Assembly: GCF_000017505.1 (NCBI RefSeq)
Contig: NC_009675.1
Coordinates: 4,096,501 to 4,160,500 of the forward strand
Direction of reading: 5' to 3'
DNA length: 64,000 nucleotides
DNA from: Anaeromyxobacter sp. Fw109-5
Lineage (GTDB): Bacteria > Myxococcota > Myxococcia > Myxococcales > Anaeromyxobacteraceae
The notes beneath the pieces were generated by a model, which was not told the origin of the DNA, did no database searches, and saw nothing but the letters and a program-made list of their open reading frames with translations. Position 1 is the first letter of the stretch; each line of letters begins with the position of its first letter. Position numbers and translations under genes: made by a program. Below, one piece after another: positions 27,115 to 36,956 of the stretch.

Positions 27115-28818
27115 TCACCCCACCCTGACCGTCGACAGCTCCGTCCCGTCGGCGTCCACCGCGTGGACCGCGCACGCGAGGCACGGATCGAAGGAGTGGA
27201 TGGTGCGCAGCGCCTCGAGGGGCAGCTTCGCGTCGGCGATCGGATTCCCCACCAGCGCCGCCTCGTACGGGCCCGCCTGCCCCTTCCCGTCCCGCGGCCC
27301 GGCGTTCCAGGTCGACGGCACCACGGCCTGGTAGTTCTCGATCGCACCGTCCTCGATCACGACCCAGTGCGACAGCGCCCCGCGCGGCGCCTCGTGAAAG
27401 CCGAACCCGCGCACCTCGCCCTTCGGGAAGGTCGGGGGGTTGAACACCGCCGTGTCGCCCCGGCCGATGTTCTCGACGAGGAGCTGCCAGTGCTTCAGGG
27501 CGAGCTCGGCGAGGACGGCCGTCCGGATGGCGCGGGCCGCGTGGCGCCCGAGCGTGGAGTGGAGCACGGCCGGGGTGAGCTTCGCGCCCGCCACCGTCCC
27601 CGCCACGTCGAGGCAGCGATCGGCCCAGAAGCGGATGCGCGGGTGGCCGAGCGCGTAGCCGACGAGGACCTGCGCGAGGGGGCCGACCTGCATCGGCCTG
27701 TCCTGGAAGCGCGGCGACTTCACCCACGAGTACTTCCCCTCCGGCTGCCAGTCCTGCACCTTGGGGACGGTCTCCTCGGCGAACGGGCTCTTCTGCCAGT
27801 CTCCCTCGTAGAACGAGCGCGCGATGGACTCCGTGACGTTGTCGCGGAAGTACGGATCGGTGAACGAGGTGAATGCGCGCGCCGAGGAGAGGTCCCCGGC
27901 CATGATCGTCCCGCCGGGCAGGTCGAACTTCGTCGCGGCGGCGTCCACCGGCAGGTCGGGGACGGAGAGGTAGCTCGTCACGCCCGCGCCGTGGCGGAGC
28001 CACTCGGGGTACATGCCGGCCACCGCGCAGACGTCGGCGAAGTACGCCTGGTGCACGAACGCCTGCACCTCCTCGAGCAGCGTCTTCACCTGGTACAGCT
28101 TCTCCATGTTCAGCGCGGCGGGGCTGTCCAGGTTGATGGCGTTCGCGACCCCGCCCACGGCGAGGTTCTGGATGTTGGGCGTCTTGCCGCCGAGGATCGC
28201 GACCGCCTGGTTCGCCTTGCGCTGCACGTCGAGCGCCTGCAGGTAGTGCGCGACCGCGAGGAGGTTCACCTCGGGTGAGAGGCGCATCGCCGGGTGGCCC
28301 CAGTAGCCGTTCCTGAAGATCCCGAGCTGGCCCGCCTTCACGAAGCCGTCGAGCTTCCCCTTCACGGCGGCGAGCGCGGCCCGCGAGTTCCCCGGCCAGG
28401 CCGACAGGCTCCCGCCGAGCGTCGCGGCCTTCGCGGGATCGGCCTGGAGCGCGCTCGTCACGTCCACCCAGTCGAGCGCGGAGAGCTGGTAGAAGTGCAC
28501 CACGTGGTCGTGCAGCGCGTGAGCGGCGACGAGCAGGTTGCGGATGAGCTGCGCGTTCAGCGGGATCGGGAGGGCGATCGCGTTCTCGACCGCGCGCACC
28601 GACGCGATCGCGTGGACCGTCGTGCACACCCCGCAGATGCGCTGCGTGAACACCCACGCGTCACGCGGATCGCGGCCCTTCAGGATGAGCTCCATCCCGC
28701 GCCACATCGTGCCGCTCGACCACGCCTTCCGGACCGCGCCACCGTCCACCTCGATGTCGATGCGCAGGTGCCCCTCGATCCGGGTGACCGGATCGATCGT
28801 GATGCGCTGGCCCGTCAT
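27115..28818 (-). CDS. hybC: [NiFe] uptake hydrogenase large subunit
   Basis: A 567-residue large subunit holding the NiFe(CN)2CO site. The first ligand pair is C62-G-V-C65 (RICGVC) and the second C546-L-A-C549-A-V-H552. The 15 residues after His552 are the tail removed by the maturation endopeptidase. The gene order small subunit-HybA-HybB-large subunit is that of E. coli hydrogenase 2, a periplasm-facing H2-oxidising enzyme. The start codon overlaps the stop of hybB by four bases. This subunit has no export signal and must leave the cytoplasm folded with the Tat-signal small subunit. No hypA-F or protease gene is in the window. Confidence 0.95.
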   Translation of the reverse strand: MTGQRITIDPVTRIEGHLRIDIEVDGGAVRKAWSSGTMWRGMELILKGRDPRDAWVFTQRICGVCTTVHAIASVRAVENAIALPIPLNAQLIRNLLVAAHALHDHVVHFYQLSALDWVDVTSALQADPAKAATLGGSLSAWPGNSRAALAAVKGKLDGFVKAGQLGIFRNGYWGHPAMRLSPEVNLLAVAHYLQALDVQRKANQAVAILGGKTPNIQNLAVGGVANAINLDSPAALNMEKLYQVKTLLEEVQAFVHQAYFADVCAVAGMYPEWLRHGAGVTSYLSVPDLPVDAAATKFDLPGGTIMAGDLSSARAFTSFTDPYFRDNVTESIARSFYEGDWQKSPFAEETVPKVQDWQPEGKYSWVKSPRFQDRPMQVGPLAQVLVGYALGHPRIRFWADRCLDVAGTVAGAKLTPAVLHSTLGRHAARAIRTAVLAELALKHWQLLVENIGRGDTAVFNPPTFPKGEVRGFGFHEAPRGALSHWVVIEDGAIENYQAVVPSTWNAGPRDGKGQAGPYEAALVGNPIADAKLPLEALRTIHSFDPCLACAVHAVDADGTELSTVRVG

Positions 28819-30032
28819 GATGCCGCTCCTTCCTTGAGCCCGGCCGGCAGGCGCCTCGGCTCGGGGAGGCTCACGCCCGCGAGGATCGGGAACCGCCGCA
28901 CCGCCAGGATGTAGACCATCGTCTCGGTGGCGATGAAGCCGAGGGTGATGAGGAGCTCTCCCACCGACGGGAAGTACCGCCAGCCGTGGCCGGGCTGGAA
29001 CGCGACCAGGAACGCGTCGACCCGGTACAGCGCGCCGCCCGCGAGGGCGAGGAGCGCCGCCTGGAGCTGCGTCGCCGGGCTCGCGTGGATCCACTGCTGC
29101 AGGAAGAGCCCCGCGGCGGACAGCAGGAGCAGCGTCTCGGCCCAGAAGAAGAACGACAGCGTGCCCGAGGTGACGGTGAGGCGGAGACGCCCTGCGCCCA
29201 TGAGGCCGGCGAAGCGCACCGCGACGAACACGAGGATCACGCCGGCGATGAACACGCCGAGCGAGCCGAGCAGCTTCGTCTCGAGCGGCCGCCGGAACGC
29301 GACGTTCGAGAAGATCGTCTCGAAGTACAGCACGGCGTACCCCATCCCGAACGCGGTGAGGAGGAACAGCAGCGGGAGCGCGCCCGTGTGCCACAGCGGG
29401 TGGACCTTCGTCCCGGCGACGACGAGCAGCGACCCGAGGCTCGACTGGTGCATCGTGGGGAGCACGAGCCCGAGCGCGATCACGAACGGCAGCGCGCGCG
29501 CGAGCCGCGGCAGCCAGCGAACCGCGAACGCCTGGCGTCGCAGGTGCCGCTCCGCGGCCCAGCGCTCGAGCAGGGCCGGCGAGAGCTCCACGAGCAGCAC
29601 AAACAGGTACGCCATGATGCAGAGCGCGACCTCGAGGAGGATCGAGCTCGTGTTCCAGCGCCACGGCATGGCAGGCACCTTCCACAGCGCCCAGTAGCGG
29701 CCGACGTCGAACATGACCGCGATGCCCGCGACGGAGTACCCGAGCGCGCTCGTCAGGATCGCGGGCCGGACGAGCGGGTGGTAGCGGCCGCGGTTCAGGA
29801 CGTAGACGAGCAGCGCGATGGCGTACCCGCCGCTCGCGAGCCCCGTCCCCACCACCACGTCGAACGCGATCCACAGCCCCCACGGGTAGCCGTCGTTCAG
29901 CGCCGTGACGGCGCCGAGCCCCTGCGTGAACCGCACGACGCCGACCGCCGTCGCAGCGGCCCAGAGGACCAGCATGAGCTTGAAGGTCGGCGTGAGGAGC
30001 CGGCCTCCCACCGCGCGCGCCCCGGTCGTCAT
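28815..30032 (-). CDS. hybB: hydrogenase membrane subunit HybB (NrfD family)
   Basis: A 405-residue integral membrane protein of the NrfD/PsrC family with about ten hydrophobic segments. Family landmarks include TALNDGYPWGLWIAFDVVV and the MHQSSLGSLL loop. It should take electrons from HybA and reduce quinone. The start is ATG at 30032, overlapping the hybA stop by four bases; its end overlaps the hybC start by four bases, which indicates translational coupling. A related gene, 32286-33491, lies upstream of the operon. Confidence 0.93.
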   Translation of the reverse strand: MTTGARAVGGRLLTPTFKLMLVLWAAATAVGVVRFTQGLGAVTALNDGYPWGLWIAFDVVVGTGLASGGYAIALLVYVLNRGRYHPLVRPAILTSALGYSVAGIAVMFDVGRYWALWKVPAMPWRWNTSSILLEVALCIMAYLFVLLVELSPALLERWAAERHLRRQAFAVRWLPRLARALPFVIALGLVLPTMHQSSLGSLLVVAGTKVHPLWHTGALPLLFLLTAFGMGYAVLYFETIFSNVAFRRPLETKLLGSLGVFIAGVILVFVAVRFAGLMGAGRLRLTVTSGTLSFFFWAETLLLLSAAGLFLQQWIHASPATQLQAALLALAGGALYRVDAFLVAFQPGHGWRYFPSVGELLITLGFIATETMVYILAVRRFPILAGVSLPEPRRLPAGLKEGAAS

Positions 30033-30910
30033 CGCTCGTCCTCCCCGCCATCGCTCGCCCGCCGGTTCCGCCACGTGACCCAGGCCAGCGCACCGAACAG
30101 GGCCACCGGCGCGACGAAGCCCTGGTAGATGCCGTGCTGGATCGTCTCGCCGAGCGCGGGCACCGCCTCCGGCCCGAGCGCCGGGAGGCCCATCGCCGTG
30201 AACGGCACCGCCGACAGCACGAGCACGCCCGTGCCCCCGCCCTCGCGCTCGCCGTACACGCCGGCCCGGTAGCGGTCCGGCTCGGCCTCGAGCCTGCGGT
30301 GCGCCTCGGCCCGCAGCTCGGCGCGCGCGCCGAACACCACCGCCTCGCGCGGACAGGCCTCCGCGCAGGCAGCGCCCTTGCCCTCGCGCCAGCGGTGCCG
30401 GCACAGCTCGCACTTCACGATGCGCGGCGTGGCCGACGACCACTGGAAGCGCGGCACGTTGAAGGGGCAGGCCACCTGGCAGTAGCGGCACCCGACGCAG
30501 CGGCTGACGTCGTACGCGACGACGCCGCGCTCGCCCTTGTGGAGCGCGCCGAGCATGCACACCGAGACGCAGGCGGGATCCGCGCAGTGCATGCACTGCG
30601 CCTTCACGAACGCGCCGTCCGCCCCGTCGCTCGTGCGCTTGATGACCGTGAGCGTCCGGTCGTTGAGGTCGATCGGCGCGTCGTAGGGCACGCCGTCCAC
30701 GAGCTTCACGTCCTCGGTGAGCGAGTTCGCCTCGCGGCAGCGCACGGTGCAGGCGCGGCACCCCACGCAGCGCGTCGAGTCGAAGAGGAGCCCGAGGTCG
30801 TCGTCGCGCGGCGGCTTCGGAGCGCGGGCCTCCGCGGGCGCGGGGGCCGCGGCGAGCGCGGCGGCGCCGCCGAGCGTTCCGAGGACGGTGCGGCGGGAGA
30901 CGTTCGGCAT
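30029..30910 (-). CDS. hybA: hydrogenase iron-sulfur subunit HybA
   Basis: A 293-residue periplasmic ferredoxin-like protein. A Tat signal (SRRTVLGTLGG) is followed by four [4Fe-4S] Cys clusters (CVGCRACTVRC, CMHCADPACVSVC, CVGCRYCQVAC, and the CELC/CAEAC pair). A C-terminal hydrophobic segment (residues about 255-280, FVAPVALFGALAWV) anchors it, as in E. coli HybA. It relays electrons from the small subunit to HybB. The gene starts three bases after the hybO stop. Confidence 0.93.
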   Translation of the reverse strand: MPNVSRRTVLGTLGGAAALAAAPAPAEARAPKPPRDDDLGLLFDSTRCVGCRACTVRCREANSLTEDVKLVDGVPYDAPIDLNDRTLTVIKRTSDGADGAFVKAQCMHCADPACVSVCMLGALHKGERGVVAYDVSRCVGCRYCQVACPFNVPRFQWSSATPRIVKCELCRHRWREGKGAACAEACPREAVVFGARAELRAEAHRRLEAEPDRYRAGVYGEREGGGTGVLVLSAVPFTAMGLPALGPEAVPALGETIQHGIYQGFVAPVALFGALAWVTWRNRRASDGGEDER

Positions 30911-30913
30911 GGC

Positions 30914-32023
30914 CTACCCCTCCCCAGGCGGTTCCTTGGGCTCGTCGTGCGCGAGCTTGCGCGAGGAGACGTAGCCCGCGGCGGCGAGACCGCCGACGAG
31001 GAGCCCCGCCACGCCCGCGGAGACGGCGCTCACCTCGCCGCGCTCCGGCGCGATCCCGGGGTACGCCATCGGCCCGGTCGGCTTCTGGACCTCGACCGTC
31101 GTGTGGAGCGGGACGCGGAACGCGATCTCCTGCTCGGTGCAGCCGACGCAGGGGTGGCCGATCCCGATGGGCCAGGCGCCGGGCACCTCGCAGAACGGGA
31201 GCAGCGAGCAGTTGGCGTGCGTCTGGGGTCCCTTGCAGCCGAGCTTGTAGAGGCACCAGCCGTCCCGGTGCCCCTCGTCGCCGAACGTCTTGGCGAACCG
31301 GCCGGCGTCGAAGTGCGGCCTGCGCGGGCAGTCCTCGTGGATGACGCGGCCGTAGGCGAACTTCGGGCGCCCCTTGTCGTCGAGCGCGGGGAGCGTGCCG
31401 AACGTCGCGAACTGGAGCACGGTGCCGAGGAGGTTGTACGGGTTCGCCGGGCACCCCGGCAGCGTCACGACGGTCTTGCCCGCGAGCACCTCCGGCGCGC
31501 CGGTCGCGCCCGTCGGGTTCGGCGCGGCCGACGGCACGCCGCCCCACGACGCGCACGAGCCGATCGCCGCGACGGCCCCGGCGCGACCCGCGACGGTGCG
31601 CGCGATCTCGAGCGCCGTGCGGCCCCCGATCATGCAGTAGCGCCCGCCCTCGCGCGTCGGGATCGCGCCCTCGATGACGCACACGTACTTGCCGTCGTTC
31701 TCGTCCATCGTCTTCGCGAGCGCGTCCTCCGCCTGGAAGCCGGCGGCGGCGAGGAGCGTCTCGTGGTAGTCGAGCGAGACGAGGTCGAGGATGAGCGCCG
31801 CGACGTCGGGGTGGCTCGTGCGGAGGAGCGACTCGGTGCACCCGGTGCACTCCTGGAAGTGGAGCCAGATGACGGAGGGCTTCTTTCCCTTCGCGACCTC
31901 CTCCGCCATCCGTTCGCCCGCCCACGCCGGGAGGCCCACCGCGGCGGCGGCGGTGGTGCAGACCTTCATGAAGTCGCGCCGTGACGGCGAAGAGGGTCCC
32001 GCGACCGAGGTCGGGTGCGGCAT
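30914..32023 (-). CDS. hybO: [NiFe] uptake hydrogenase small subunit
   Basis: A 369-residue small subunit, the first gene of the operon. The Tat signal is SRRDFMK. Fe-S cluster ligands are visible in ECTGCTE, IGSCASWGG, PGCPANP, HEDCPR and the medial/distal ligands toward the end (NCSLLPFCEVPG, HPCVGCTEQE). A C-terminal membrane anchor (about 325-350) follows. AAGGAGG at about 32028-32035 on the minus strand supports ATG 32023. An 8-bp inverted repeat lies 41-63 bases upstream of the start. Confidence 0.93.
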   Translation of the reverse strand: MPHPTSVAGPSSPSRRDFMKVCTTAAAAVGLPAWAGERMAEEVAKGKKPSVIWLHFQECTGCTESLLRTSHPDVAALILDLVSLDYHETLLAAAGFQAEDALAKTMDENDGKYVCVIEGAIPTREGGRYCMIGGRTALEIARTVAGRAGAVAAIGSCASWGGVPSAAPNPTGATGAPEVLAGKTVVTLPGCPANPYNLLGTVLQFATFGTLPALDDKGRPKFAYGRVIHEDCPRRPHFDAGRFAKTFGDEGHRDGWCLYKLGCKGPQTHANCSLLPFCEVPGAWPIGIGHPCVGCTEQEIAFRVPLHTTVEVQKPTGPMAYPGIAPERGEVSAVSAGVAGLLVGGLAAAGYVSSRKLAHDEPKEPPGEG

Positions 32024-32063
32024 CGCGCCTCCTTCCCGCGGGCATCCGCGGACGGTGCGATGA

Positions 32064-32086
32064 TGGGCGCCGTTTTCGGGCGCCCA
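32064..32086. promoter_or_regulatory. inverted repeat in the hyb leader region
   Basis: Perfect 8-bp arms TGGGCGCC (32064-32071) and GGCGCCCA (32079-32086) with a 7-base loop, 41 bases upstream of hybO. No T run follows. It could be an operator or a leader RNA hairpin; the factor is unknown. Confidence 0.4.
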
Positions 32087-32285
32087 CCTTGACCTCTGTC
32101 ATTCGGCGCAAAGATCGCGCGCAACTCTTGCGTTCGCTCGTGAATCCGGGATGTTGGCCGTCGCGCAAATTCGGGCCGAGCGGCGAGGACCGGCCGCCTC
32201 GGCGCCAGAATTGACTCCTTCGCACCAGGAGTTCACCGACGAGCTGTGATCGAGCCAGCCCGATCACCGCCCCGCGTTCGCGCCT

Positions 32286-33491
32286 TCACGCGTGCGCGCG
32301 CAGGCGCGCGGCCTCCTGTCGCCGCCCGGTGGGCTCGGCGACGCCGCTCAGGATCGGCAGCCGCTTGACCGCGACGACGTACAGCGCGACGCCTGCCGCG
32401 GCGAGGCCCAGCGAGAAGACGATCTCGGCGAGCGACGGGAAGTAGCTCCAGCCCATTCCAGGCGAGAACGCACCGAGGTAGACGTCGAAGCGGTACAGCG
32501 CCCCCCCGGCGACGGCGAGCTGCGCGGCCCAGAAGAGGCGGCCGGCGTTCTCGCGGTACGAGCGCCGGAGGACCCGCACCGCCGGATAGGTGAAGAGGCC
32601 CAGCTCCACGAGGAAGAGCACGCCGCGCCAGCCGGTGACGTTGCGCAGCGCGCCGGACGTGGCGAGATCGCCGACGCGGAGCGCGACGAAGGCGAGCGAC
32701 AGCCCGGCCATCACGAGCGCGAGCGAGGAGCACAGCCGGACGTCCCGCCTGCGCCCCCACGCGAGGTGCGTGAGCGTGTCGACGACGATCACCGCGCCGA
32801 ACCCCATGCTCAGACAGGAGAGCAGGAAGAGCGCGGGTAGCCAGCCCGTGTACCAGAGCGGGTGGAGCTTCGTCGGCGCGAAGAGGAACAGCGCGCCGAG
32901 GGACGACTGGTGCATGAAGGGCAGGACGATCGCGAGCGCCAGGAGGAAGGGGAGCATCTCCTGCGTCCGCGGCAGCACGCGCGCGGCGAGCCGGCCGCGC
33001 GCGCCCGGCGCGTCGCGCCAGCGCTCGAGCAGGGCGGGGAGCACCTCGAGCCACAGGACGGCGCAGTACGCGATGACGCAGAGCGCGACCTCGAGCAGCA
33101 CCGAGCCGACGTTCCAGCGGGTCGGGACGACGAGCGCCCAGACGGTCCACCATCGCCCGAGATCCACGAGCACGGAGATGCCGGCGAGCGTGTAGGTGAT
33201 GGCGCCGGTCAGGACCGCTGAGCGGACGAGCGGGTGATGGCGGCCGCGGTTCGCGACGTGGGCGACGAGCGCGAGCCCCAGCGCTCCCGCTCCGATGCCG
33301 GTGAACGTCACGACGTTGAGCGGCTTCCAGATCCCCCACGCGAAGCCGTCGTTCAGCGCGGTGATCGGCCCGAGGCCGGTGAGCAGCCGAACCGACACGA
33401 GCACCGATGCGGCCGCCGCGATGAAGAGCGCGAGCCTCGTGCCGCGGGTGAGGAGCGGACCTCCGACGGGAGCCACGGACGCGTGGGCCAT
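32286..33491 (-). CDS. second HybB/NrfD-family membrane protein
   Basis: A 401-residue protein clearly homologous to hybB downstream: both contain a GLGxxTALNDG segment, an NRGRxHPLVRxA motif, MHQSSLGxL and a late GGALYR. About ten membrane segments are visible. It lies on the same strand 262 bases upstream of hybO and has no adjacent iron-sulfur or catalytic subunit. It could serve the hydrogenase in another electron route or a complex encoded elsewhere. It starts at ATG 33491. Confidence 0.85.
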   Translation of the reverse strand: MAHASVAPVGGPLLTRGTRLALFIAAAASVLVSVRLLTGLGPITALNDGFAWGIWKPLNVVTFTGIGAGALGLALVAHVANRGRHHPLVRSAVLTGAITYTLAGISVLVDLGRWWTVWALVVPTRWNVGSVLLEVALCVIAYCAVLWLEVLPALLERWRDAPGARGRLAARVLPRTQEMLPFLLALAIVLPFMHQSSLGALFLFAPTKLHPLWYTGWLPALFLLSCLSMGFGAVIVVDTLTHLAWGRRRDVRLCSSLALVMAGLSLAFVALRVGDLATSGALRNVTGWRGVLFLVELGLFTYPAVRVLRRSYRENAGRLFWAAQLAVAGGALYRFDVYLGAFSPGMGWSYFPSLAEIVFSLGLAAAGVALYVVAVKRLPILSGVAEPTGRRQEAARLRAHA

Positions 33492-33865: not shown

Positions 33866-34951
33866 TCAGCCGCCGAAGGCCACCTGGTAGATGGGCGGCA
33901 GGCGCGCGGCGAGGAGCTGCCAGCGATCCCCGCCGTCCTCCGAGATCCACAGGCCGCCGGTGGTCGAGCCCATCACCAGCCGCCCGCCGTCGTCGCTGAC
34001 GTCGAGCCCGTGTCGGTACACGAGATCGTAGGCGTGCTCCTGGGGGAGCCCGTCGCGGAGGACCTCGAAGCTCTCCCCGCCGTCGCGCGTCCGCGCCACG
34101 ACGAGCCTCCCGTCCACCGGCACGCGCCGCTCGTCCTTCACCGCGGGCACGAACCAGGCGGTGCGAGGATCGGCGGGGTGCGCGGCGACGGCGAAGCCGA
34201 ACTTGGAGGGCCGGATGGCGGTGATCTCCGTGAACGTCCGCGCGCCGTCCGTGGAGCGGAAGGTGCCGTTGTGGTGCTGCACGTAGAGGACGTCGGGAGA
34301 GGACGCGCACTGCGCCAGCCGGTGCACGTCCTGCACGTTCAGGTCGTCGCGCCGCTCGGGAGGCATGTACTCGGCGTACATGCCGTGCCCGCACGGCGTC
34401 CAGGTCTCGCCGCCGTCATCGCTCGCCCAGACGCCTCCCGTGGAGATGGCGCAGCGCAGCCGCCGCGGATCGCGCGGGTCGACGCAGATCGAGTGCAGCC
34501 CCGGCTCGTCGTAGCCGCCGCCGGCCCACTCCTTTCGCTCCGGTCGATCCCACAGCGAGCGGACGAGCGTCCACGACGCGCCGCGGTCGGCCGAGCGGAA
34601 GAGCGCGGCGGGGATCGTGCCCGCCCAGAGGGCCCCGGCTTCGCGAGGACCGCCCGCGGCGAGGGCCCAGAGCTGATGGACCGTGGGGGCGTCCCCGGCG
34701 CCCTCCGGCGCGGCGGGGAACGCCGGCGCGCACACCTCGCTCCAGCTCCGGCCGAGGTCGTCCGACCGGTGGAGCTTCACCCCGAAGTGCCCCAGCGCGA
34801 GCGCCGCGTAGAGCGTGCCGTCGCGCCGGTCGTCGAGCACCATCGAGACCGGGTCCCCGAGGAAGGAGACGCGCGCGACCGCCCAGCCGCGCGCGCCGCG
34901 CTCCAGCAGGAACAGCCCCTTCCGCGTGGCCACGTGGATCGCGTCGCTCAT
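33866..34951 (-). CDS. BNR-repeat beta-propeller protein (VPS10/sialidase-like fold)
   Basis: A 361-residue protein without signal peptide, built of repeated Asp-box motifs of the BNR type: SDDLGRSWSEV, SADRGASWTLV, SDDGGETWTPC, STDGARTFTEI, TRDGGESFEVL and SEDGGDRWQLL. These form a six- or seven-bladed propeller. Such proteins near MoaD-like genes are usually annotated glycosyl hydrolase or exo-alpha-sialidase, but no sialidase catalytic residues are obvious. It lies six bases after the MoaD-like gene in a probable operon. Function unknown. Confidence 0.8.
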   Translation of the reverse strand: MSDAIHVATRKGLFLLERGARGWAVARVSFLGDPVSMVLDDRRDGTLYAALALGHFGVKLHRSDDLGRSWSEVCAPAFPAAPEGAGDAPTVHQLWALAAGGPREAGALWAGTIPAALFRSADRGASWTLVRSLWDRPERKEWAGGGYDEPGLHSICVDPRDPRRLRCAISTGGVWASDDGGETWTPCGHGMYAEYMPPERRDDLNVQDVHRLAQCASSPDVLYVQHHNGTFRSTDGARTFTEITAIRPSKFGFAVAAHPADPRTAWFVPAVKDERRVPVDGRLVVARTRDGGESFEVLRDGLPQEHAYDLVYRHGLDVSDDGGRLVMGSTTGGLWISEDGGDRWQLLAARLPPIYQVAFGG

Positions 34952-34957
34952 CGCGCC

Positions 34958-35227
34958 TCATCCTCCCGAGAGGGCCTGCATGACGAACACCGCGCTCGAG
35001 GGGCGCACCGCATCCGTGAGGCGATCGCGATCGGCGACGAGCTCTCCGTCCACGAACACGACCACGTGCTTGCGCAGCCGTCCCTGATCGTCGAGCACGT
35101 AGCTGCGCAGGCGCGGGTTCGCGCGGAACACTTCGTCCAGCGCCTCGCGCACCGTCGCGCCCGCCACGCGGGTGGCGGGAGCGGCGAGGTGACGCTCGAG
35201 CGTGCGCGTGAAGGTCACCACCGGCAT
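34958..35227 (-). CDS. MoaD/ThiS-like ubiquitin-fold protein
   Basis: An 89-residue beta-grasp protein with the hallmark GG C-terminus (FVMQALSGG). MoaD/ThiS proteins carry sulfur as a C-terminal thiocarboxylate. The expected features are a strand VVTFTRTLERH, helix ATVREALDEVF and the strand VVVFVDGELV. An ATG at 35254 is also in frame; 35227 gives the canonical N-terminus MPVVTF. Neither start has a good ribosome site. The neighbour is a BNR-propeller gene and no molybdopterin or thiamine genes are near. Confidence 0.75.
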   Translation of the reverse strand: MPVVTFTRTLERHLAAPATRVAGATVREALDEVFRANPRLRSYVLDDQGRLRKHVVVFVDGELVADRDRLTDAVRPSSAVFVMQALSGG

Positions 35228-35356
35228 GCGGTCCACGGTCCGTCGCGGAGTCATCGCATGCCGCCGGGGCGACGCGGACGCAATCCTCGGGCGGGGTGCC
35301 CGGCCGGTAAACGGGCTCTTATTCTCCGCCGCCGCGCGCCCCGCCGGCGGCGGAGG

Positions 35357-36280
35357 TCAGCGCTTCGCCCGGCCCCCGCTCGCGCGCTTGCGCGGCTGTG
35401 CCGGTGCGGCCGGAGCCGCCGCGGCCGGCTGCGCAGCCGGGGCCGCGACCGCCGCCTTCCCGCGGTCGGGATCGATCTCCGGCGTGAGCAGGATCTCGAT
35501 GCGGCGGTTGCGCGCGCGCTCCTTCGCGGTCTTCCCGGTGGAGATCGGATCGTACTGTGAGTGCGCGGCCCCGACGAGGCGACGGCCGGGCACCCCGGCG
35601 CGCTCCTCGAGGAACCGCACCACCGTGATGGCGCGCGCCGCGGAGAGCTCCCAGTTCGTGGGGAAGCGCTCCACGAGCCGCTTCGAGATGGGCAGGTCGT
35701 CGGTGTGACCCGAGACCTGGATGTGCTTGTCGCTCATGCGGGCGAGCACCGCGCCCACGCGGGAGAGCACCTCCGCGCCCTGGGCCGAGATCGAGGAGTC
35801 GCCCACGTCGAACAGGATCTCGTCCACCATGTCGACCTTGATGCGTCCCTTCTCCTGCGAGAGGCGCACGTTCCCCTTCTCGATCTCCGCCTTCATCTTC
35901 TCCTGCAGCTCGTCGAACTCCCCGCGCAGCGCCGCGATCTCCTGCTCCTTCTGCTGCACGTCCTGGGAGAGCTCGTCCTTCACGGCGAGGAGATCGCGCC
36001 TCTCGACCTCCGCCTGGCCGAGGCGCGTCGCGAGGTCGGCCCGCTGCGTACGGGCGTCGTCGAGCGCGGCGCGCGCCTCGTGGAGCCCCCGCGTCGCGCT
36101 CGCCGCCTCCCCGCGCGCCTCCCGGAGCTGCCAGTAGAGCCAGCCCGCTGCGCCCGCGCCTGCGGCGAGCACGAGGAGGAGCAGCATCCACGGCGCGCGG
36201 CTCGGCCGCTTCGCGGCCACCGGCTCCGCGGACAGCTCCTCGAAGTCGTCGAACAGCTCCTGCTCGTCGAGCTTCGGCAT
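35357..36280 (-). CDS. coiled-coil OmpA/MotB-domain protein
   Basis: A 307-residue inner-membrane protein: short cytoplasmic acidic N-terminus, one membrane helix (residues about 31-52), a coiled coil (about 53-140), and an OmpA-like peptidoglycan-binding domain (VDEILFDVGDSSIS, VSGHTDDLPIS, RNRRIEILLTP). The membrane helix lacks the Asp of MotB, so a motor role is not supported. The C-terminal 40 residues are Ala/Pro/Arg-rich. GGGAGG before the ATG at 36280 decides the start over a Met 12 codons upstream. Confidence 0.8.
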   Translation of the reverse strand: MPKLDEQELFDDFEELSAEPVAAKRPSRAPWMLLLLVLAAGAGAAGWLYWQLREARGEAASATRGLHEARAALDDARTQRADLATRLGQAEVERRDLLAVKDELSQDVQQKEQEIAALRGEFDELQEKMKAEIEKGNVRLSQEKGRIKVDMVDEILFDVGDSSISAQGAEVLSRVGAVLARMSDKHIQVSGHTDDLPISKRLVERFPTNWELSAARAITVVRFLEERAGVPGRRLVGAAHSQYDPISTGKTAKERARNRRIEILLTPEIDPDRGKAAVAAPAAQPAAAAPAAPAQPRKRASGGRAKR

Positions 36281-36512
36281 GCACCGTCCTCCCGTCGAGG
36301 CGCGGGATTCTTCCACCCTGCGTCAGGAAGCGAGCAAGCACCAGGGTGGGCGGAGAGACCACCTCGGCGCCCGGTCAGGGGCGCGGGACCCCCGGATGCG
36401 GACGCGGGCGCCCCGCTGGAGCCGCCTCTCGGGTTTCGCGAAGCGTGCGGGAATGCTCACCCTCGCCCGGCTGTAAGTGGTGCGTCGCAGCACCCACGCC
36501 GAGGAGCCCTGA

Positions 36513-36956
36513 ATGTCCATGATCAAGCGCGACGAGCTTTCCCCTCCGCCCATGCCCTCCACGAACGGCCCGATGTCGAGCGGCCACAGCGATCTCCTCC
36601 TCGGCGCGGGCGCCGAGTTCGAGGGCAAGCTGACGTTCCGGGGCACGGTCCGGATCGACGCGCTCTTCAAGGGATCGATCGTGACGAACGACGTGCTCGT
36701 GGTCGGCGAGCACGCCCGCATCGACGCGGAGATCACCTGCGGGACCGTGGTCGTCGACGGCGAGGTGAACGGCGACATCCACGCCAAGACCGCGGTCGAG
36801 ATCCACCGCTCCGGGCGCGTGCGCGGCAACGTCGAGTCGCCCTCCCTCGCGCTCGACAAGGGCGGGCTCCTGTACGGCTCGGTGAAGATGACGCCCGGCG
36901 AGAAGCCGGCCGACAAGCCGGCGCCCGTGAAGCCGACGCCGGCGCCGTCGAAGTAG
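36513..36956 (+). CDS. bactofilin
   Basis: A 147-residue bactofilin, a cytoplasmic beta-helix polymer. The DUF583 core runs from about 28 to 128 with strands such as FRGTVRIDALFKGSIVTND and GTVVVDGEVNGDIHAKTAVE. The Pro/Ser-rich N-terminus and Pro/Lys-rich C-terminus are typical disordered tails. Bactofilins scaffold cell-shape or polar functions; Myxococcus has several. GAGGAG at 36501-36506 supports the ATG. It is divergent from the OmpA-domain gene. Confidence 0.9.
   Translation: MSMIKRDELSPPPMPSTNGPMSSGHSDLLLGAGAEFEGKLTFRGTVRIDALFKGSIVTNDVLVVGEHARIDAEITCGTVVVDGEVNGDIHAKTAVEIHRSGRVRGNVESPSLALDKGGLLYGSVKMTPGEKPADKPAPVKPTPAPSK

Follow-up and report, generated by a model that had tools for sequence, protein, structure and literature searches.

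A small protein of the ThiS/MoaD fold that ends in Gly-Gly is encoded beside a seven-bladed Asp-box propeller in several bacterial phyla, and we propose, with about even confidence, that the two are a dedicated carrier and its cognate enzyme, the GG tail of the carrier reaching a pocket on the top face of the propeller. Computation recovers a two-gene unit, a GG tail on the small protein, conserved propeller residues located at the top face, and evidence for selenocysteine in some planctomycete propellers. The carrier-plus-enzyme reading is drawn by analogy with MoaD-MoaE and CysO-CysM, and sulfur transfer appears to fit the pair best.

The window, a stretch of 64,000 nucleotides from Anaeromyxobacter sp. 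Fw109-5, holds the pair with the carrier ORF first and the propeller ORF second (Table 1). A preliminary description of this DNA had named a MoaD/ThiS-like protein with a GG end lying six bases from a cytoplasmic BNR propeller, and its elements hold up. The carrier scores 24.1 bits against Pfam ThiS (PF02597; cut-off 22.5) and ends in Gly-Gly, both of which place it in the ThiS/MoaD superfamily; the six-base gap separates two genes on the minus strand; and the propeller matches the BNR and Sortilin models of Pfam, finds 3b7f at E 7.6e-59, scores 525.7 bits with the family profile, and has no signal-like hydrophobic N-terminus that could be seen by eye. By sequence, SAMP1 is the best NCBIfam and PDB match of the carrier. 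The NCBIfam score (NF041918, 46.2 bits) is nevertheless below the family cut-off of 60, the PDB matches (SAMP1, one MoaD-related protein, and one ThiS/MoaD protein) are all weak, and the carrier differs from SAMP1 in being encoded beside a propeller. It presumably resembles CysO as well. Against the MoaD model TIGR01687 it scores 17.6 (cut-off 49.5), and the NCBIfam search listed no match to the MoaD model TIGR01682 or the ThiS model TIGR01683. Beside the pair, positions 28815-33491 of the window (minus strand) contain ORFs that by eye resemble a NiFe-hydrogenase set, which from their motifs we take to include a hydrogenase small subunit (30914-32023), a ferredoxin-like protein (30029-30910), and an NrfD-like protein (32286-33491). 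Also recognized by eye are a protein with an OmpA-like C-terminal domain (35357-36316, minus strand) and a bactofilin-like ORF (36513-36956, plus strand).

Table 1. Features of the carrier-propeller pair in the window (residue numbers are those of the propeller) and of related genes at other loci.
Feature	Position or locus	Strand	Basis or conservation
ThiS/MoaD-fold (SAMP1/CysO-like) carrier, 98 aa, C-terminal QALSGG	34958..35254	-	ORF call, Pfam, NCBIfam, PDB comparison
Codons for C-terminal Gly-Gly	34961..34966	-	Sequence; stop codon at 34958-34960
Intergenic spacer, six bases, between carrier and propeller	34952..34957	-	ORF coordinates
Seven-bladed Asp-box (BNR) propeller, 361 aa, relative of PDB 3b7f	33866..34951	-	Sequence, profile match
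Lys11 codon	34919..34921	-	Lys 229, Arg 9, Asp 1 (239 domains); loop 2-3
His55 codon	34787..34789	-	His in 193/194 Asp208-type and 6/41 Cys/Sec-type domains
His153 codon	34493..34495	-	Kept in 237/244; begins the first strand of a blade
Asp208 codon	34328..34330	-	Asp 201, Cys 32, in-frame TGA 9, Thr 2, gaps 6 (250 domains)
His210 codon	34322..34324	-	Kept in 242/244 domains with a residue there
Gln225, His226, His227 codons	34271..34279	-	Gln225 kept in 236/244, His227 in 239/244
Arg276 codon	34124..34126	-	Arg 235, His 5, Tyr 1 (241 domains)
Arg313 codon	34013..34015	-	Kept in 238/242 domains
Carrier fused to ArsC-like low-molecular-weight phosphatase	L254:9047-9721		
Carrier fused to AHSA1 domain	L258:10013-10744		
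Carrier fused to DinB domain	L270:9860-10702		
E1 with front rhodanese domain and TGA at the conserved cysteine column	L273 (G505), L274 (G619), L275 (G650)		Sec-propeller genomes

A MoaD-like ORF adjoins the propeller in 221 of the 241 loci examined, or in 217 of 237 once four repeats (L003/L042, L081/L130, L083/L146, L098/L152) are set aside. The 241 loci were drawn as five samples, of which the first two, from the phylum of the window and from named genomes, are biased toward close relatives, and those from Pseudomonadota and Planctomycetota are not. All 30 loci of the window's own phylum are paired among the matches listed from a search of 193 genomes (lower matches were left out, including a second G151 copy and some seven family-like ones with E from 2e-51 to 3e-42). 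Named genomes, taken as the best 80 of at least 575 relatives, yield 78 pairs, the misses being L096, which lies at a contig edge, and L118. Every reported match was used for Pseudomonadota (13/16 paired; 299 genomes, E 1e-30) and for Planctomycetota (97/107 loci paired; 111 matches in 90 of the 199 genomes searched), and the pair is present in three of the eight plasmid records opened out of 43 with a propeller match. Loci L012, L113, L157, and L185, which are paired under the standard code and unpaired with TGA read through, were counted as paired, as were L209 and L222, which are paired only with TGA read through. The 20 unpaired loci comprise two at contig edges, four distant propellers, and 14 family members whose fetched stretch leaves space for a neighbor on either side (6 Asp, 6 Cys, and 2 Thr types, so that both Thr208 propellers are without an adjacent MoaD). 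ThiS-family genes number only about four in the 5.3 Mb of the window genome, yet such a gene adjoins most propellers, and the pairing therefore exceeds chance. The preliminary description had pointed to similar pairs in other bacteria, without a known role, and called for a count of adjacency across genomes, with a rare and scattered pair or neighbors that differ from genome to genome as the outcomes that would tell against it; neither occurred, the pair is found in several phyla, and the partner is one recognizable family.

Three loci carry further features of context. On a Pseudomonas aeruginosa plasmid (L122, NZ_CP133752.1), the pair, annotated as a MoaD/ThiS family protein and an exo-alpha-sialidase, is surrounded by YciI, VOC, and sigma-factor genes. 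Rhodobacter sp. CZR27 has a Cys-type propeller without an adjacent MoaD beside the ergothioneine genes egtD and egtB (L124:3577-7104), possibly by coincidence, and Undibacterium terreum encodes a second, divergent ThiS-like ORF with the C terminus IAGG about 6 kb from its pair (L078:3452-3943). Roles in phages and in defense were considered and rejected: a search of 50,697 phage records matched no propeller, and PADLOC returned no match for four proteins.

Either gene order occurs, with a median of 28 bases between domain edges (217 loci), and the pairing persists through at least five order switches on a FastTree tree of 233 rows, 229 of them different, from which the distant propellers L128, L129, L145, and L252 and four rows with more than 120 gaps were left out. 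Presence of the neighbor changes at least 10 times on this tree, mostly, by our reading, through losses near the tips. Clustering of ORFs of at least 90 codons around 80 loci, many of whose stretches were shortened by contig ends, showed that, the pair's own frames apart, no other gene recurs in over 24 of the 80 neighborhoods. Pfam searches of 67 neighbor ORFs at 20 Cys- or Sec-type loci (part of 97 that passed a crude G+C-based gene filter, with 30 left out) found no family more than twice, four occurring twice and the rest once. That the pairing outlasts changes of gene order speaks against a true glycosidase or sialidase that merely stands beside an unrelated carrier, with operon history as the sole link between them. 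The annotation of plasmid copies as exo-alpha-sialidase or sialidase family points toward such an enzyme; however, the window's propeller scores 66.9 bits against the F510_1955 glycosylhydrolase model of NCBIfam (NF045728), far from its cut-off of 175, and its relative 3b7f is listed with unknown function in the available text of PMC2716378, so that we find this explanation scarcely credible.

Other carriers encoded in the window genome help to place the small protein. Three further ThiS-family genes are present. One of them shares a 242-aa frame at 1311 kb with the sole MoaE match of the genome, making a MoaD-MoaE fusion, and another, the ThiS gene at 1524 kb, scores 75.7 with TIGR01683 (cut-off 37.45). 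The third, at 4223 kb, encodes a CysO-like carrier and directly precedes an E1 that scores best with the MoeZ model (536 bits; cut-off 647) and passes the cut-off of a MoeB model; a JAB peptidase match lies about 2.3 kb beyond these two genes (G000:C1:4223353-4227045). JAB and ThiF matches also occur within one 625-aa open frame near 1873978-1875450. The preliminary description had noted that genes of molybdopterin or thiamine synthesis are missing from the vicinity, and indeed every other match of the genome to the ThiS family, ThiF, or MoaE falls outside contig positions 4096501-4160500. A role in molybdopterin or thiamine synthesis was rejected, as the MoaD-MoaE fusion and ThiS are encoded elsewhere; because the genome has other carriers for both cofactors, the window's protein is an additional one.

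Two carrier-enzyme systems are among the closest comparisons. MoaD-MoaE resembles the window pair in that a GG-tailed carrier and the enzyme using this tail are encoded together, but its partner is MoaE rather than a propeller, and no MoaE is beside or fused to the window's carrier, the genome's one MoaE match being that of the fusion at 1311 kb. The CysO-CysM/Mec system with MoeZ, which serves cysteine synthesis in mycobacteria, has a counterpart in the CysO-like gene, MoeZ-like E1, and nearby JAB peptidase at 4223 kb. In contrast, no CysM, Mec, or E1 is conserved by the pair across the 80 neighborhoods clustered, and the partner is a propeller. In mycobacteria, one MoeZ sulfurates both MoaD proteins and CysO, according to the accessible part of PMC3227635. 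The window's carrier is presumably loaded by the CysO-adjacent E1 or by another E1.

The tail is the most constrained feature of the small protein. Gly-Gly is its sole invariant part in the alignment and forms the exact terminus of 194 of 203 partner proteins, within the pattern [AS]-[LVIMF]-[STA]-G-G. Tails beside Asp208 propellers read QALSGG in 150 of 177 cases, and those beside Cys-type propellers are mostly AVSGG or AISGG. An interrupted propeller (L017:993-2091) adjoins a MoaD-like ORF that ends in SGC, not SGG; yet the partner of a propeller with an internal TAG (L013) keeps an intact QALSGG, and the GC tail is therefore an anecdote. Three carriers (L254, L258, and L270) continue past the GG into another domain (Table 1), and that of L254, from a planctomycete, scores 61.6 bits with the SAMP1 model (NF041918), over the cut-off of 60. 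If such fused carriers do carry sulfur, they would have to be cut after the GG, by analogy with MoaX of mycobacteria, a fused form cleaved after GG (PMC4326299, from the text available).

As described in the available text of PMC2716378, the structure 3b7f (YP_299179.1) is a seven-bladed propeller of unknown function with a tunnel of 9 by 11 Å and an unusual closure, and the top face is the functional face in Asp-box propellers; the same text gives neither function nor gene context for it. The window's propeller belongs to this family by a match of sequence and fold over the whole domain, the fold being taken from the model of a relative (Z 48.2 and rmsd 2.0 over 351 residues against 3b7f). 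To this family we add the conserved residues, the pairing, and the Sec forms. Across 250 aligned domains, Lys11, His153, His210, Gln225, His227, Arg276, and Arg313 are near invariant. In the predicted structure, conserved polar residues map to loops 2-3 and 4-1, which form the top face, or to positions adjoining these loops, and from this location they probably share one pocket. Together with the exchange of Asp, Cys, and Sec at position 208, the conserved His, Lys, Arg, and Gln look like an active site. The apparent covariation of His55 with residue 208 (Table 1) goes back to one independent change on the tree. An AlphaFold2 model of a read-through chain of carrier and propeller from a relative (L099; mean pLDDT 89.4, pTM 0.84) folds both domains well; residues 84-104, which are the tail end and linker, have pLDDT below 50, which leaves the tail undefined, and the linker forces the chain to run on after the tail.

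A site of this kind could also belong to a propeller that is a metal or thiol/selenol enzyme, a hydrolase or oxidoreductase with perhaps a detoxifying role, for which the MoaD-like protein would be a structural or regulatory subunit with an unsulfurated GG. The His-rich site with Asp, Cys, or Sec would suit such an enzyme, propellers without a carrier occur, and some Cys/Sec types have ArsC-like phosphatase, AHSA1, DinB, DoxX, or glyoxalase families as neighbors or fusion partners, none of them recurrent. A mere structural subunit would have no need of a Gly-Gly that is invariant and almost always terminal, and we consider this explanation rather improbable.

In planctomycetes, nine genes of two sequence types, from seven genomes, have an in-frame TGA at the codon of residue 208. 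All nine fall in one column, aligned with the Cys of homologues (Cys or Asp elsewhere) and two residues before His210, and all nine genes have a MoaD-like neighbor. Downstream of the TGA, a SECIS-like hairpin is indicated by folding energy alone: the 30 bases that start 12 bases past the TGA have a median z of -2.41 in the nine Sec forms versus -0.26 in 32 Cys forms, where z is the stability relative to the rest of the same gene and the Mann-Whitney p of 5e-5 ignores relatedness. One Cys form close to the Sec forms (L232) keeps a similar hairpin. All seven Sec-propeller genomes have tRNA-Sec at 65 bits or more, the gathering score of 47 being reached by some other tRNAs and exceeded in 5 of 14 control genomes, and SelB is over its cut-off in six of the seven. 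The same search found tRNA-Sec in 14 of 17 other planctomycete genomes, and it is therefore a needed condition and not a discriminating one; two genomes with Asp forms (G194 and G552) are without both tRNA-Sec and SelB. These planctomycete propellers thus appear, from the aligned codons, to carry selenocysteine at residue 208 of the putative pocket. Sequencing errors, suppressed stops, or pseudogenes could in principle yield the same codons, as the TGA forms are all genome data, several in many pieces, and in one of the seven genomes no SelB match passes the cut-off. Against such artifacts stand the recurrence of one codon in nine genes from seven genomes at a Cys/Asp column beside His210, the downstream hairpin, and the tRNA-Sec of all seven genomes, and we judge them very improbable as an explanation of the TGA forms. 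The propeller is absent from the 119 prokaryotic selenoprotein families in Table 1 of a May 2026 review (PMC13188914), and among the open-licence papers listed in our searches none treats the pair or a propeller with Sec. In the window genome itself, both tRNA-Sec (75.4 bits, G000:C1:2230996-2231090) and SelB (325 bits, 4858634-4860556) are matched, so that it should decode selenocysteine, though its own propeller has Asp208.

A carrier of this fold would require an activating enzyme, and E1-like genes were found in 14/14, 12/12 (four repeated), and 24/24 of the genomes searched. As 12 of 14 control genomes also have one, the family is near universal and its presence lends weak support. Among seven E1s aligned from Sec-propeller genomes, a rhodanese domain precedes the adenylation domain in five, follows it in one, and was not detected in one. 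In three of the seven Sec-propeller genomes, the best E1 has one TGA, each time at the cysteine column of PSC-AEGGVLG, which we take to be the acyl-transfer cysteine of the E1 family. Among 24 other planctomycetes, G585 alone has a best E1 that contains a TGA. The excess is weak (Fisher p 0.028 with all 24 for comparison, and 0.088 with the 14 in which tRNA-Sec is shown) and gives no more than a hint that Sec-E1 and Sec-propeller are associated. MoeB is listed as a selenoprotein family in Table 1 of PMC13188914, with Sec in the same kind of E1 as in our three genomes; that family is the E1 itself, and the propeller does not appear in the table.

We infer loading, docking, chemistry, metal, and substrate for the carrier and its cognate enzyme along the following lines. 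A MoeZ/MoeB-type E1 encoded elsewhere in the genome would adenylate the carrier at its C-terminal Gly and convert this end to a thiocarboxylate. The tail could then enter the top-face pocket of the propeller, which would hand the sulfur on to an acceptor. The pocket may bind a metal, as suggested by a His-rich site in which Asp, Cys, or Sec could be an exchangeable ligand; in the Cys and Sec forms, residue 208 may instead act directly. A single chemistry for all types is not obvious, because Asp cannot replace a Cys or Sec nucleophile. The fourteen family propellers without an adjacent MoaD, and the three carriers that would need cleavage, count against the carrier-enzyme reading.

The preliminary description had suggested an uncharacterized conjugation or sulfur-transfer step. 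Sulfur transfer is the reading that seems to fit best, and the results speak neither for nor against conjugation to the propeller. The enzyme-like site and the selenocysteine forms had no place in that description. Ubiquitin-like modification would place the GG protein on target lysines, with the propeller as its reader, a ligase-like partner, or the main target. Ubiquitin-binding WD40 propellers exist, and the nearest named family of the carrier is SAMP1, a small archaeal modifier (below the family cut-off). Carriage of sulfur and protein modification can also go together, as Urm1 performs both jobs (PMC8561144, in the portion available). However, the pair is not accompanied by any conserved third gene, and the conserved His, Lys, Arg, and Gln with the Asp/Cys/Sec exchange look more like an active site. 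We consider modification unlikely, while granting it a real chance.

Carriers of the ThiS/MoaD fold supply the molybdenum cofactor, thiamine, cysteine, and tRNA thiolation, among others, and to our knowledge every known enzyme that receives from such a carrier has opened a pathway. The window pair suggests an unrecognized carrier-plus-enzyme system, and a carrier conserved across several bacterial phyla whose partner is unstudied indicates a step still missing from the map. Tentatively, and with well under even confidence, we speculate that the protein represents both a new class of enzymes that accept sulfur from a carrier, with a seven-bladed propeller fold and an exchangeable Asp/Cys/Sec active site, and a new selenoprotein family, and that in some planctomycetes Sec occurs in both the loading E1 and the receiving propeller, placing selenium at two consecutive steps. 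The Sec forms single out residue 208 as the first candidate for a functional residue and would bring a propeller into a selenoprotein list dominated by thioredoxin-like folds. With a solved relative (3b7f) and genetics of only two genes, the system is directly testable.
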